64,000 nt of DNA from Hydrogenophaga sp. RAC07 (GTDB taxonomy: Bacteria; Pseudomonadota; Gammaproteobacteria; Burkholderiales; Burkholderiaceae_C), in assembly GCF_001713375.1 (NCBI RefSeq), contig NZ_CP016449.1, positions 2,108,001 to 2,172,000 on the forward strand. Direction: 5' to 3'. The translations under genes were made by a program, and so were the position numbers. How positions within the stretch are numbered: position 1 is the first letter of the stretch; the number at the start of each line of letters is the position of its first letter. Below, one piece after another: positions 8,244 through 64,000 of this stretch. The notes under the pieces are model-generated. The model made no database searches, had not been told where the DNA came from, and saw only the letters and a list, made by a program, of their open reading frames with translations.

Positions 8244-9043
8244 GAGAGCGCAAGGGCCAGGCCCAGGTAGAACAGCACTTCGCTCACCTGTTGCGTGGCG
8301 CCCAGGCCATCGCCAGTGAAGCCTTGCAGCCGGCGCTGCAGCAAGCGCCACATCCAGGCCAGGCCGATCGCGGCGCCGAGCACGGCCTGTGCCCACGGCA
8401 CATCAGGCAGCAGCCACACCACGAGCACCATGGCCAGCGCCCACCACAGCAGGCCCGCAGCCAGCGCGCCATTCGACAGACTCTCGGCCAGCGGTTTGCT
8501 TTTGGACTGCGGTGTGTCCCCCACGTGCGGCAACGTGCGGATCACGAACAACGGCGCCGTGCGCGAGGTGACATGGGCAGCGAACAGCGCCACCACCGCG
8601 AGCCAGGCGTCCGTTTGCGCCAGCAGCGCGAGCAGCGCTACCTTGGCGAGCACCACCAGCACCAGCGCGATCGCGCCATAGCTGCCGATGCGCGAGTCCT
8701 TCATGATCTCCAACGCCCGGCCGCGGTCCATGCTGCCGCCCAGCCCGTCGGCCAGATCGGCCAGCCCGTCCTCGTGAAAGGCGCCGGTGAGCAGCACGCC
8801 GAACACAGTGCTGGCAATCGCCGCCACCCAGGGCGCTGCGGGCACTGGCGGCAGGGCCAGCAGCAGACCCCACAACACCGCCGCCGTGAGCACACCCACG
8901 ATCCAGCCCACACCCGGGAAATGCGCGGCGCTGGCGCGCAGCATGGCGGGACTGAAGCCCACCCAGTCGGCCAGGCGCCCTGTCACCGGGATGCGGGTGA
9001 AGAACTGCAGGGCCAACAGGAAATGACGGACGAACTGCGTCAT
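8240..9043 (-). CDS. cobS: Adenosylcobinamide-GDP ribazoletransferase (cobalamin synthase)
   Basis: 267 residues, an integral membrane enzyme that joins adenosylcobinamide-GDP and alpha-ribazole (phosphate) to give adenosylcobalamin (phosphate). The conserved acidic motif GAFHEDGLADLADGLGG (about residue 100) and the following MKDSRIGSYGA block are diagnostic. Several hydrophobic helices span the rest. The start MTQFVRHFLLALQFFTRIPV was chosen because it matches the family N-terminus and overlaps the cobT stop as ATGA; the frame is open further upstream inside cobT. Confidence 0.95.
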   Translation of the reverse strand: MTQFVRHFLLALQFFTRIPVTGRLADWVGFSPAMLRASAAHFPGVGWIVGVLTAAVLWGLLLALPPVPAAPWVAAIASTVFGVLLTGAFHEDGLADLADGLGGSMDRGRALEIMKDSRIGSYGAIALVLVVLAKVALLALLAQTDAWLAVVALFAAHVTSRTAPLFVIRTLPHVGDTPQSKSKPLAESLSNGALAAGLLWWALAMVLVVWLLPDVPWAQAVLGAAIGLAWMWRLLQRRLQGFTGDGLGATQQVSEVLFYLGLALALS

Positions 9044-59644: not shown

Positions 59645-59679
59645 AAAGCCGCCCGGTCACCCCGGCGGCTTTTTGTTTT
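59645..59679 (+). terminator. Intrinsic terminator between bcp and phoH
   Basis: Stem AAAGCCGCC / GGCGGCTTT with a 10-nt loop, followed by TTGTTTT. It ends about 30 nt before the phoH ATG and so ends bcp transcription or a short upstream transcript. Confidence 0.85.
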
Positions 59680-59708
59680 ACAGCCTCGCGCTGAACACAC
59701 AAGCCCAC

Positions 59709-61481
59709 ATGCCACTGCCCCCCGCCCCTTCCAAACGCGCCGCCCTCCTGTCACCCGAAGCCTACAGCCTCAAAGCGGCCGAAGAGCCTTTCGAGCTGGA
59801 GGTCGTCACAGCACCCGTTGTGGTCTTGCCTGAGGCCCAACCCGCACGATTGCCAGAGCGCGAAGCCGTGGCCCTGGCGCCACCCCCAGCAGCCAAAACC
59901 GCCGGTCGTGCAGGTGGCCGCGGACGCAAGCCGGCAGTGGCAACCCCTGTGGTGGCCGAGCGCTCGGAAACCGCACCCGTGCTGCAGAAAGCCACGACAC
60001 CAGTGATTCCGGCTCCGCGAAGCCCACAGTCGGCGCAGGTCACGGCCTCGTCGGGTAGCCGCCGTCGTACTGCGGGCAAGGCAGGCAACGGCCCAGCCAG
60101 GCTGTTCGTGCTGGACACCAACGTATTGCTGCACGACCCGATGAGCCTGTTCCGCTTTGAGGAACACAACATCTTCCTGCCCATGATCGTGCTCGAAGAG
60201 CTTGATGGTCACAAGAAGGGCATGACGGAAGTGGCGCGCAATGGGCGCCAGACCAGCCGCACGCTCGACGCCCTGGTGGCGCAGCAAGGAGGTGACATGA
60301 CCAAGGGCCTCAAGCTCTCGGCCACCGGTCACCACGGCGCGCGCGGCCTGCTGTTCTTCCAGACCGAACCGCTGGAAAGCAGCCTGCCATCCAGCCTGCC
60401 GCAAGGCAAGGCCGACAACCAGATCCTGGGTGTGGTGCATTCGCTGCGCCAGCGCCATCCCGAACGTGAGGTCATCCTGGTGTCGAAAGACATCAACATG
60501 CGCGTGAAAGCGCGCGCGCTCGGCCTGGCAGCAGAAGACTACCAAAACGACAAGACGCTGGACGACGGCGAACTGCTGTACGCGGGCGCGCTGGCGCTGC
60601 CGCAGGACTTCTGGACGCGCCAGAGCAAGACCATTGAGAGCTGGCAGAGCGGCAGCCACACCTTCTACCGCGTCAGCGGTCCGGCGGTGGGGCAGTTCTA
60701 CATCAACCAGTTTGTGTATTTCGAAGCGCCGGGCGAGCCTTCGCTGTACGCCCGTGTGACCGAAATCCGCGACAAGACAGCGGTTCTCAAGACACTCAAG
60801 GACTACACCCACCTGAAAAATGCCGTGTGGGGCGTGACCAGCCGCAACCGCGAACAGAACTTCGCGCTCAACCTCCTGATGGACCCCGAGATCGACTTCG
60901 TCACGCTGGCCGGCACAGCCGGCACCGGCAAGACGCTGATGGCCTTGGCCAGCGGTCTCACCCAGGTCCTCGACGACCGCCGCTACACCGAGATCATCAT
61001 GACCCGTGCCACCGTGAGCGTGGGCGAGGACATCGGCTTCCTGCCCGGCACCGAAGAGGAAAAGATGGGTCCCTGGATGGGTGCGCTCGACGACAACCTG
61101 GAGTTCCTGGCCAAGGGTGACGGTGGCAACGCAGGCGAATGGGGCCGCGCGGCCACCAACGAGCTGATCCGCAGCCGCATCAAGGTCAAGAGCATGAACT
61201 TCATGCGCGGCCGCACCTTCATGAACAAGTACGTGATCATCGACGAGGCGCAGAACCTGACGCCCAAGCAGATGAAAACGCTGATCACGCGAGCCGGCCC
61301 GGGCACCAAGATCATCTGCATGGGCAACCTGGCACAGATCGACACGCCTTACCTGACCGAAGGCTCGTCAGGCCTCACGTTCGCAGTGGACCGCTTCAAG
61401 GGCTGGCCGCACGGTGGGCACATCACGCTGGCGCGCGGTGAGCGTTCACGCCTGGCCGATTTCGCTTCCGAGGTGCTTTGA
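59709..61481 (+). CDS. PIN-PhoH fusion ATPase
   Basis: 590 residues. Residues 1-130 are Pro/Ala-rich and poorly conserved. Residues 133-285 form a PIN nuclease-like domain (RLFVLDTNVLLHDPMSLFRFEEHNIFLPMIVLEELDGHKKG; acidic residues D, E and D in VSKDINMRVKARALGL remain). Residues 360-590 form a PhoH ATPase domain with Walker A GTAGTGKTLMA and Walker B YVIIDEAQN. This is the PhoH2 architecture, for which RNA helicase/RNase activity has been shown in other bacteria. Gene ends just before an IS inserted in its terminator. Confidence 0.92.
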   Translation: MPLPPAPSKRAALLSPEAYSLKAAEEPFELEVVTAPVVVLPEAQPARLPEREAVALAPPPAAKTAGRAGGRGRKPAVATPVVAERSETAPVLQKATTPVIPAPRSPQSAQVTASSGSRRRTAGKAGNGPARLFVLDTNVLLHDPMSLFRFEEHNIFLPMIVLEELDGHKKGMTEVARNGRQTSRTLDALVAQQGGDMTKGLKLSATGHHGARGLLFFQTEPLESSLPSSLPQGKADNQILGVVHSLRQRHPEREVILVSKDINMRVKARALGLAAEDYQNDKTLDDGELLYAGALALPQDFWTRQSKTIESWQSGSHTFYRVSGPAVGQFYINQFVYFEAPGEPSLYARVTEIRDKTAVLKTLKDYTHLKNAVWGVTSRNREQNFALNLLMDPEIDFVTLAGTAGTGKTLMALASGLTQVLDDRRYTEIIMTRATVSVGEDIGFLPGTEEEKMGPWMGALDDNLEFLAKGDGGNAGEWGRAATNELIRSRIKVKSMNFMRGRTFMNKYVIIDEAQNLTPKQMKTLITRAGPGTKIICMGNLAQIDTPYLTEGSSGLTFAVDRFKGWPHGGHITLARGERSRLADFASEVL

Positions 61482-61499
61482 TTCGAAGGCTCAAGATGC

Positions 61500-61519
61500 C
61501 AACAAAAAACCCGGCCACG
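61500..61519 (+). terminator. Left half of the terminator split by the IS
   Basis: CAACAAAAAACCCGGC followed by loop CACG. Together with 62969-62984 it once formed a perfect 16-nt bidirectional terminator (CCCGGC-CACG-GCCGGG with A6/T6). The insertion separates the halves. Confidence 0.9.
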
Positions 61520-61526
61520 TGAACTG

Positions 61527-61569
61527 CACCCCAAAAGTTGGACATCAATCCAACCTTTGGGGTGTTTTT
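61527..61569 (+). terminator. Hairpin plus T-tract at the left end of the IS
   Basis: CACCCCAAA-A-GTTGGA / TCCAAC-C-TTTGGGGTG (15 pairs, one mismatch), loop CATCAA, then TTTTT. It lies between the left terminal repeat and the transposase ATG. It should end transcripts entering from phoH, and its 3' arm (GGGGTG) holds the only ribosome-site-like sequence for orfA. Confidence 0.75.
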
Positions 61570-61570
61570 C

Positions 61571-62101
61571 ATGGCGAGACACGATGAGAGCTTCAAGCTC
61601 GAAGTGGTACAGCAATATCTTTCTGAGTCTTCAGGCGCGCGAACGATAGCCTTGCGATATGGGCTGGACCACGGGACAGTGCGCCGCTGGGTCGAGGGGT
61701 ATCGCCTTCATGGAGTGGAAGGGCTGCGCAAGAAGTTCAGCCACTACGACGAGCAGTTCAAGATGAACGTGCTGTGCCGGATGTGGCGAGAGGAGCTTTC
61801 CTGCCGCCAGGTGACTGCATTGTTCGATATACGCGGTGGGCATGGCGTCGTATCGGGCTGGGAGCGTCAGTATCATGAGGGCGGTATAGACGCCCTCAAG
61901 CCCAAACGACGACGCGGCCCGAAGTTGATGACAGCGCCCAAGCCACCCGATCCCCCGCCACCACATGCCAACGACGTAAGCACGCTGGACGCGCTGCGCA
62001 AGGAAAACGAACATCTGCGCGCGGAGGTGGCGTACCTAAAAAAATTGGATGCCTTGGTTCGAGTGAATCGGCAAGCTGCGCAGAAAAAGCGCAAGCCGTG
62101 A
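61571..62101 (+). CDS. IS3-family transposase OrfA
   Basis: 176 residues. Two helix-turn-helix blocks (LEVVQQYLSESSGARTIALRYGLDHGTVRRWVEGYRLHG and MNVLCRMWREELSCRQVTALFDIRGGHGVVSGWERQYHEGG) bind IS ends, and a leucine-zipper-like helix (LDALRKENEHLRAEVAYLKKL) ends the protein. A run of seven A at 62038-62044 (CTA AAA AAA TTG) can promote -1 frameshifting to give OrfAB. The start ATG follows the T-tract directly. Confidence 0.92.
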   Translation: MARHDESFKLEVVQQYLSESSGARTIALRYGLDHGTVRRWVEGYRLHGVEGLRKKFSHYDEQFKMNVLCRMWREELSCRQVTALFDIRGGHGVVSGWERQYHEGGIDALKPKRRRGPKLMTAPKPPDPPPPHANDVSTLDALRKENEHLRAEVAYLKKLDALVRVNRQAAQKKRKP

Positions 62102-62931
62102 TCGGACTGAGGCAGGACCACCCGTTACCCGCGCTGCTCAAGGCCGCAGGGCTGTCGCGCAGCACGTTCTACTACCAGGCCAAAGTGCTTGAAGCCGGCG
62201 ACAGGTACGCTGGGCTGAAGACGCGCATCCGTGCCATCTACGAGCGCCACAAGGGCCGATACGGATATCGGCGCATCACTGCTGCTCTTTGCCATGCAGG
62301 CGAGGTCATCAACCACAAGACTGTTCAGCGTCTGATGCAGGCTCTTGGCCTGAAATCTCTGGTGCGACCCAAGAAGTACCGCTCCTACCGTGGACAGATC
62401 GCCGCCGCTCCCAATTTGCTGAATCGCCAATTCGAGGCCAACGGAGCAAACCAGAAATGGGTGACTGATGTGACCGAATTCAATGTCGGGGGCAACAAGC
62501 TCTACCTGTCCCCGGTGATGGACCTCTACAACGGGGAAATTGTGGCCTACGAGATGCTTGAGCGCCCTGTCTTCGCGCTGGTGGGGCGCATGCTGAAGAA
62601 AGCGCTGGCCCGGCTCTCAGACCAAGATTCGCCGCTGCTTCACTCCGATCAGGGCTGGCAGTACCAGATGCCCGCCTACAGACGCCAACTCATCGACCAT
62701 GGACTGCACCAAAGCATGTCGCGCAAGGGCAACTGTCTGGACAACGCAGCGATGGAGAGCTTCTTCGGCACGTTGAAAAGCGAGTTCTTCTACTTGACCA
62801 AATTCGCAAGCATCAAGCAACTCCAGCAAGGCCTACATCGCTACATCCACTACTACAACCACCACCGCATCAAGCTCAAACTCAAAGGCCTGAGTCCAGT
62901 TCAATACCGGATTCAGGCCTTGAGCCGCTGA
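62098..62931 (+). CDS. IS3-family transposase OrfB (DDE integrase domain)
   Basis: 277 residues from GTG; usually made as an OrfAB fusion. A helix-turn-helix-like N-terminus (LLKAAGLSRSTFYYQAKVLE) is followed by the HTH_21 region (YGYRRITAALCHAGEVINHKTVQRLMQALGLKSLVRPKKYRSYRG) and the integrase core: the first Asp in WVTDVTEF, the second in LLHSDQGWQYQ, and the Glu in NAAMESFFGTLKSEFF. All three acidic residues are present, so the element could be active. Confidence 0.94.
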   Translation: MIGLRQDHPLPALLKAAGLSRSTFYYQAKVLEAGDRYAGLKTRIRAIYERHKGRYGYRRITAALCHAGEVINHKTVQRLMQALGLKSLVRPKKYRSYRGQIAAAPNLLNRQFEANGANQKWVTDVTEFNVGGNKLYLSPVMDLYNGEIVAYEMLERPVFALVGRMLKKALARLSDQDSPLLHSDQGWQYQMPAYRRQLIDHGLHQSMSRKGNCLDNAAMESFFGTLKSEFFYLTKFASIKQLQQGLHRYIHYYNHHRIKLKLKGLSPVQYRIQALSR

Positions 62932-62964
62932 CTTCTAACCGTCCAACTAATTGGGGTCAGTTCA

Positions 62965-62984
62965 CACGGCCGGGTTTTTTGTTG
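62965..62984 (-). terminator. Right half of the terminator split by the IS
   Basis: CACG target duplication followed by GCCGGGTTTTTTGTTG, the exact complement of 61500-61515. dnaB transcripts, coming from the right, meet only this arm and then the IS, so the original dnaB terminator is lost. Confidence 0.9.
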
Positions 62985-62996
62985 TGCACCATCTGA

Positions 62997-64000
62997 TCAG
63001 AAGTCGCCACCGCCGGCCAGACTCTCGAAGCGCGTGAGCATGTTCAGGAAGGCCAGCTTCACCGTGCCCGTTGGGCCGTTTCGCTGCTTGCCGATGATGA
63101 TCTCGGCCACACCGGGTTCCTTGCACGCGTCCTTGGTGTAGTACTCGTCGCGGTAGATGAACATGATGATGTCCGCATCCTGCTCGATGGCGCCCGATTC
63201 GCGCAGGTCGCTCATCATGGGGCGTTTGTCGGTACGGGTCTCCACACTTCGGTTGAGCTGCGAGAGCGCAATCACAGGACACTGCAATTCCTTGGCCAGC
63301 ATCTTCAGGCCACGCGAGATCTCGCCCAGCTCGGAAGCTCGGTTGTCACCGTCGCCACCGCTGCCGCTCATGAGCTGCAAGTAGTCCACCACGATCAGGC
63401 CGAGCTTGCCGCACTGGCGCGAGAGGCGTCGTGCGTTGGCGCGCAGCACGCTGGCGGTGAGACCCGGGGTTTCGTCGATGTGCAGCGACACGTTGCGCAG
63501 CTTCTCGATGGCTTCGGTCAAGCGCGGCCACTCGTCGTCGGTGAGTTTGCCGTTGCGCAGGTGGGACTGGTTGATCCGGCCGATCGAGCCGACGATACGC
63601 ACCGCCAACTGCGAGGCACCCATCTCCATGGAAAACACCGCCACCGGCAGGCCTTCGTTGAGCGCCACGTGTTCGGCGATGTTGATCGCAAACGCGGTCT
63701 TGCCCATGGACGGGCGCGCGGCCAACACGACCAGATCACCGGCTTGCAGGCCTGAAGTCATGCGGTCCAGATCGACGAATCCGGTGGGCACGCCGGTGAT
63801 GTCGTTGGGGTTGTCGGCCATTTCCTGCACGCGGTCGAGCAGCTCGACCACCAGCGTGTCCATGCCCTGGAAGCCCTCCTTCATCCGCGAACCTTCTTCG
63901 CCGATGTTGAAGATCTTCTGCTCAGCCTCGTCGAGGATCTTGTCGACCGACTTGCCCTGCGTGTTGAAGGCTGCGGTGGCGATCTCGTCGCTGGCAGCCA
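62997..64000 (-). CDS. dnaB: Replicative DNA helicase DnaB (N-terminus beyond window)
   Basis: About 334 residues of the C-terminal part, starting inside the linker region (AASDEIATAAFNTQGKSVDKILDEAEQKIFNI). The RecA-like ATPase core has Walker A RPSMGKTAFA, the Walker B VVDYLQLM and the arginine-finger region SQLNRSVETRTDKRPMMSDLRESGAIEQDAD. The DnaG-binding N domain lies outside the window. It is the helicase that opens the fork ahead of Pol III. Confidence 0.97.
   Translation of the reverse strand, partial: AASDEIATAAFNTQGKSVDKILDEAEQKIFNIGEEGSRMKEGFQGMDTLVVELLDRVQEMADNPNDITGVPTGFVDLDRMTSGLQAGDLVVLAARPSMGKTAFAINIAEHVALNEGLPVAVFSMEMGASQLAVRIVGSIGRINQSHLRNGKLTDDEWPRLTEAIEKLRNVSLHIDETPGLTASVLRANARRLSRQCGKLGLIVVDYLQLMSGSGGDGDNRASELGEISRGLKMLAKELQCPVIALSQLNRSVETRTDKRPMMSDLRESGAIEQDADIIMFIYRDEYYTKDACKEPGVAEIIIGKQRNGPTGTVKLAFLNMLTRFESLAGGGDF

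Follow-up and report, generated by a model that had tools for sequence, protein, structure and literature searches.

Why should an insertion sequence (IS) lie exactly in the loop of a transcription terminator? The question is raised by the interval between two convergent genes of Hydrogenophaga sp. RAC07 (genome G000), close to the end of the window, the whole 64,000-nt stretch analyzed here (contig NZ_CP016449.1, positions 2,108,001 to 2,172,000). In the list of open reading frames these genes occupy positions 59673 to 61481 of the plus strand and, for the 3′ part of the second, 62997 to 64000 of the minus strand. We take them to be phoH and dnaB, names given in the initial annotation, which fit the translations and were assigned independently of any family search.

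The split terminator between phoH and dnaB

The two arms of the putative terminator, CAACAAAAAACCCGGC (61500 to 61515) and GCCGGGTTTTTTGTTG (62969 to 62984), are perfect reverse complements that would form a 16-bp stem with a 4-nt loop. The left arm starts 18 nt past the phoH stop codon and the right arm ends 12 nt ahead of that of dnaB. Between each arm and the IS stands one copy of the target-site duplication CACG (61516 to 61519 and 62965 to 62968), which is the loop sequence. The initial annotation had placed the IS at the center of this loop, between complementary 16-nt arms and two CACG copies, and on re-reading the sequence this description is exact. Among the 551 positions tested in the flanks of the site, no other matches its hairpin score.

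The further proposal, that the element had entered the center of a bidirectional terminator, is borne out as a prediction by relatives that lack the IS. A search of the genus matched phoH in 63 relatives, and 29 of these were examined as loci. The palindrome is an intact, perfect two-sided terminator in 18 of them, which favors targeting; eight have another arrangement, two could not be evaluated, and one (G059) carries an element. In G054 and G048 the stem is nearly the same as in RAC07, with the loop CATG. These empty sites also bear on the idea that the flanking arms are long inverted repeats of the element itself. Although the arms recur around different copies with a similar layout of A-tract and GC stretch, their sequences vary from copy to copy and each pairs with its own partner only, the duplication separates arm from element, and the arms exist in relatives without the IS. 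Empty sites and copy-specific arms thus contradict this explanation, to which we give practically no credence.

The element and its copies in RAC07

Similarity searches, profile matches and the sequence itself identify the 1445-bp element (61520 to 62964, plus strand) as an IS150-like member of the IS3 family. The left terminal inverted repeat is TGAACTGCACCCCAAAAGTTGGAC (61520 to 61543), and the right one (62941 to 62964) reads TGAACTGACCCCAATTAGTTGGAC on the other strand. orfA is listed at 61538 to 62101 of the plus strand, with a likely start at the ATG at 61571, and its product matches the helix-turn-helix (HTH) profiles HTH_28 and HTH_Tnp_1. orfB (62098 to 62931, same strand) encodes a DDE transposase matching rve, rve_2 and HTH_21, and scores 338.9 bits against NF033516 (transpos_IS3; cut-off 160). 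An A AAA AAA run at 62038 to 62044, in phase with orfA when worked out manually, is the probable −1 frameshift site, as orfB lies in the −1 register downstream of it. The element thus shows the family's rve-type orfB, an HTH-encoding orfA upstream, TG...CA ends with inverted repeats, and a 3-5 bp duplication. An Rfam search of positions 61000 to 63500 returned no match, and phage records gave two partial matches.

Three copies were found in RAC07 by similarity search, together with some weaker relatives (L005-L007). All three are predicted to split terminators, again favoring targeting: besides the CACG site, AAAAAGGCCCGCA and TGCGGGCCTTTTT enclose a duplicated CGT, and CAACAAAAAACCCGCT and TCCAGCGGGTTTTTTGTTG a duplicated GGAG, in the same layout. 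Two copies are identical across the 1444 bases compared (the query ended at 62963, one base short), and the third is identical in both of the pieces into which another element divides it.

The interrupting element is 1451 bp long with ends GGCGGATTCAAC and is presumably IS30-like, judged by its protein. It splits the third copy at element position 1140-1142 (L402:854-2304, equivalent to G000:C1:1503853-1505303). A similar IS30-like insertion in L403, at about 988-2439 (G079:C3), occupies the same conserved spot of orfB, the HSDQGWQ-coding motif, in a related element. Such IS30-like elements may target IS3 transposase genes.

Repeated insertions at the same loops

At the phoH-dnaB locus of G059, the right end of the element adjoins phoH and the left end adjoins dnaB, the reverse of the arrangement in RAC07, and the duplication is ATT. 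The terminator downstream of a gene that we take to be acs, a name given from translations, holds the element in three species: RAC07 (copy 3), G059 and G028. Read in the direction of acs, the duplications are CTCC, ACTC and TTTG, respectively, and the element is reversed in G028. Each G059 site was assembled from a pair of contigs, both broken within the element, with their pairing deduced. Because orientation or duplication differs between the species, a single inherited insertion is rejected at either locus, and independent insertions appear to be the simplest reading. Inversion in place combined with a matching later change in both duplications would, formally, also account for the shared sites.

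Target preference across many copies

Further loci were collected by similarity searches and by scans for the left end of the element alone, without regard to the flanks, and include Burkholderiales, Halomonas and Enterobacterales along with a few other phyla. The copies fetched are part of those known; in G1222, for instance, 20 of 39 places were fetched by region. One left-end scan gave at least 117 stretches, all of which were read into the left-flank set, and among 370 genomes of the class the left-end pattern was matched in RAC07 and G028 only. Left flanks that were shorter than 60 nt, contained N or shared their last 30 nt with another flank were dropped before counting.

In the 239 distinct left flanks that remained, the frequency of A reaches 0.69 at −16 and that of C+G 0.80 at −9, with composition near-even past −25. 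A test for an A-tract followed by a GC arm is passed by 156 of these flanks and failed by 83, against 338 passes at 8977 control positions 60-560 nt further out within the same flanks (Fisher p 6e-146, neighboring control positions not being independent). Where both sides were available (32 copies), the test is passed on the left in 25 and on the right in 21.

Right ends were found by regular expression in 33 of 90 long-enough bodies, and their flanks were rejoined; the other 57 include some miniatures, described below, and others that are unexplained. Since the right end had to match the expression, this two-sided set leans toward elements with right ends like the present one. Each site was given the best hairpin score within 10 nt of the duplication, ranked against other positions in the same flanks. 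The rank lies in the top 5% for 29 of the 33 sites and in the top 1% for 23; a stricter search, within 3 nt, gives 26 and 21. The four sites outside the top 5% are L081, L174, L300 and L257, the last with a mis-called right end, for which another reading gives the duplication ATGAC. The insertion lies within 1.5 nt of the hairpin center in 26 of 33 copies, and a duplication of at least 3 nt is likewise present in 26, so that the pattern of IS elements that target repetitive extragenic palindromes (REP), insertion on a palindrome axis with a short duplication, is reproduced here. Strong hairpins with the insertion 3.5-7 nt off center occur at L067, L068, L070 and L071.

The hairpin ranks within each site's own flanks, in combination with the enrichment among the 239 left flanks, rule out chance as the cause of the phoH-dnaB insertion. 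A different matter is survival: insertions might be random, with those persisting that fell in harmless intergenic sites, where terminators are common. Terminators are indeed intergenic, coding insertions would presumably be purged, and the convergent sites at phoH-dnaB, at the second RAC07 copy and at one G028 copy look harmless. Yet survival leaves unexplained the centering on the loop, the constant spacing of the A-tract across the left flanks and the repeated hits at the same loops. It also leaves unexplained the behavior of a related clade, found in RAC07 itself (L005-L007) and in sister genera, whose ends carry the extra tips TGAAYCGCCCCGG. In this control clade the A-tract/GC signal is found in 0 of 18 distinct flanks, and among six two-sided sites a loop hairpin reaches the 5% level in none by the strict search and in one (0.044) by the wide search. 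Survival without targeting is therefore, in our estimate, very unlikely.

The control clade has doubled tips at both ends, with TGAAYCGCCCCGG a few bases outside TGAACTGACCCCC (L017, L045, L050-L053, L055-L058 and L414-L431, as well as L005-L007). A doubling of another kind is seen in Cupriavidus pauculus (G1223), where at least three copies carry two left ends, spaced by 137 bp, in front of the remaining element (C1:340615/340752, C9:32879/33016 and C34:65950/66087).

Terminators or palindromes

A background of about 300 kb contains 1277 hairpins of five or more G-C pairs, of which 1180 lack an A or T tract, 91 have one and six have both. A core of five G-C pairs is present in 24 of the 33 targets and missing in nine; four of the 24 are tract-free, eight have one tract and 12 have both. 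A simple comparison with hairpins that have no tract carries less weight, because part of the background hairpins are located within genes, from which insertions would be purged. Tracts on both sides are found in 12 of the 20 tract-bearing targets as against 6 of 97 such background hairpins (p 2e-7). The comparison suggests that the targets are terminators, not mere palindromes, and the two-sided enrichment suggests a symmetric signal in the DNA.

This result also bears on whether the transposase might instead follow transcription, by way of RNA polymerase paused at terminators, an RNA hairpin or an R-loop. Terminators are defined by transcription, and a preference for them over other palindromes is what such coupling would produce. 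The tracts on both sides and the insertion in both orientations point instead to a symmetric DNA signal, and the REP palindromes into which ISKpn1 inserts do not, according to PMC1525189, act as terminators. We regard transcription coupling as improbable, although less so than survival alone. The target would more probably be read at the DNA level, either as an inverted repeat of A-tract, GC palindrome and T-tract or as a hairpin extruded from it, and not via the transcript.

The flanks establish that the element sits at or near the center of predicted hairpins, usually with 3-5 bp of the loop duplicated, that both orientations and many hosts are represented, and that different species carry it at the same terminator. 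Our preferred reading, to which we assign a probability of about 0.87 on the sequence comparisons, is that an IS3 element of the IS150 kind is directed to the loops of intrinsic terminators, above all those composed of an A-tract, a GC stem and a T-tract.

Hairpins at the ends of the element

If terminators are split by insertion, what becomes of termination? The element carries a hairpin at each end. The left-end hairpin (61526 to 61569, plus strand), a predicted terminator and/or translation block, is followed by UUUU just ahead of the likely orfA ATG. It faces phoH and folds at −27.9 kcal/mol (z −5.6). Among 119 distinct left ends, 111 reach a folding energy of −15 kcal/mol or better, and a run of at least four T comes next in 92. 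The initial annotation had the element supplying its own terminator for phoH, which stands as a prediction from this hairpin and its U run. A simple consensus scan of positions 60500 to 63800 gave three terminator-like sites (shuffle mean 2.9), and neither end hairpin is among them.

The left-end hairpin may act by terminating transcription, by masking the orfA ribosome site, or in both ways. That it serves as a translation block and not as a terminator, concealing the ribosome site in read-through RNA, is a reading that we consider possible but less likely than not. GGGGTG lies in its 3′ arm shortly ahead of the ATG, and hairpins guarding a translation start are known from other IS elements. 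Against this stand the T runs that follow most of the left ends. The two roles can coexist, and only the part of the explanation that concerns the end hairpins is affected by the choice.

The right-end hairpin (62885 to 62921, minus strand) lies inside orfB and faces transcription from dnaB; its conservation is seen in folding and in compensatory changes. Of 33 right ends, some of them identical, 31 fold at −30 kcal/mol or better on the other strand. Covariation was assessed in 19 distinct stretches chosen by hand (L071, also distinct, was left out), in which 95.4% of the stem cells are paired. Five pairs have changed on both sides, a number reached in 3 of 500 shuffles; cells changed on both sides number 22, against 8.4 in shuffles, and the covariation score of 0.300 was equaled in none of 500. 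Further pair types occur in ordinary numbers (62 of 500 shuffles). By eye, a third-position change in a Gly codon pairs with an Ala-to-Pro codon change opposite, from which the stem seems to be kept at the expense of the protein. Since the T-rich tail falls on lysine codons of the coding strand, we infer no more than a putative terminator role for this hairpin. The claim that the insertion breaks the terminator for dnaB holds as far as the split itself goes, but as an account of a dnaB left without a terminator it is probably incomplete, given a hairpin that would face dnaB transcription, albeit with a poor T-rich tail.

The hairpins at both ends would bar external transcription from the transposase gene and would partly stand in for the split terminator. 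If they both block entry and replace the terminator, insertion would cost the host little.

Miniature derivatives

Among the hits without a right end are miniatures of 43-54 bp in which the left end is joined to an inverted copy of its own tip. An exact pattern for them, present in 3 of 399 genomes of the order, was scored at 18 distinct sites (L081 being a full element), and the hairpin ranks in the top 5% of the flanks in nine. This scoring read the plus strand only; L139 and L434 fall outside it and had their flanks read separately. L092 passes in the scoring that covered looser matches and not in that of the exact pattern. Four looser miniatures, L114, L160, L199 and L200, also have hairpins in the top 5% and show 3-5 nt duplicated. 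When the flanks are included in the fold, each of 11 miniature sites gives a single long hairpin, at −43.5 to −80.3 kcal/mol, and insertion of a miniature is therefore predicted to lengthen the terminator hairpin while its arms stay in place.

Miniatures in the loops of hairpins or predicted terminators occur in several phyla (L198, L200, L160, L114, L199, L150, L088, L130, L073, L167 and L092). At L434, read by eye, the miniature is flanked by GGCCGTCTGAAAGG and its complement, which contain GCCGTCTGAA, presumably the Neisseria uptake sequence.

Related elements and known systems

The OrfB of this element is 56.6% identical to that of IS150 and 62.3% to that of ISKpn1, and both are nested among its relatives in an OrfB tree. 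Terminator insertion extends across most forks of this tree, which has weak deep forks and includes no members of other IS3 subgroups. IS150, ISKpn8 and ISEnfa3, of the IS150 subgroup, have OrfB proteins 50-58% identical to the present one and similar ends, and the right-end stem is similar in IS150, ISKpn8 and ISKpn1. Single copies of several elements were read by eye. Unlike the present element, those of IS150 and ISKpn8 are not in terminators and that of ISEnfa3 is in a hairpin without a T-tract; that of ISKpn1 is in a REP-like palindrome and that of an Acinetobacter relative in a terminator.

Group IIC introns insert beside terminators, but they are retroelements with a ribozyme, and nothing comparable is present here. 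A literature search recognized no IS3 or IS150-type element in terminator loops with duplication of the loop, a weak negative, as most subscription papers and ISfinder were outside its scope.

The available text of PMC1525189 describes ISPsy8, of the IS3 family, as inserting on the symmetry axis of REP palindromes with a 3-bp duplication, and cites IS1397 and ISKpn1, of the same family, for insertion into REP/PU palindromes. These elements share with the present one the family and the insertion on a palindrome axis, and ISKpn1 is nested among its relatives. As far as that text goes, their target is a repeated, conserved REP, whereas here the targets are predicted intrinsic terminators that have A/T tracts and stems varying from site to site.

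IS1272 and TnSha1, of the IS1182 family, target hairpins without a sequence consensus, many of them terminators, and hit the same terminator several times and in both orientations, according to the available parts of PMC4923244 and PMC5678879. The targeting of hairpins and terminators and the repeated hits in both orientations are thus common ground. In the same sources these elements cut in the stem and delete hairpin sequence without a duplication; the present element has a transposase of another family, keeps both arms at the sites listed and duplicates the loop (at least 3 nt in 26 of 33). As far as these partial sources go, the insertion of IS3 elements on a REP axis (PMC1525189) and the targeting of terminators by IS1272, accompanied by deletion (PMC4923244; PMC5678879), are already published, and insertion of an IS150-type element into terminator loops with the loop duplicated is apparently new.

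A wider reading would have the whole IS150 subgroup inserting in hairpin loops, with terminators the usual target and the REP sites of ISKpn1 and IS1397 a special case. The transposase would read the DNA hairpin itself, the end hairpins would take over termination, and the 43-54 bp palindromic derivatives would merely lengthen terminator hairpins at almost no cost to the host. We consider this wider reading possible but rather doubtful.

Implications

If the preferred reading of terminator targeting is correct, one lineage within a very common family of IS elements lands in intrinsic terminators, and in the same ones repeatedly across species. Its sites would offer a defined, sequence-variable set of targets with which to study how a DDE transposase recognizes a DNA hairpin. 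An element of this kind may determine the 3′ ends of the genes beside it, and palindromes of roughly 50 bp inside terminators may be miniature mobile elements.
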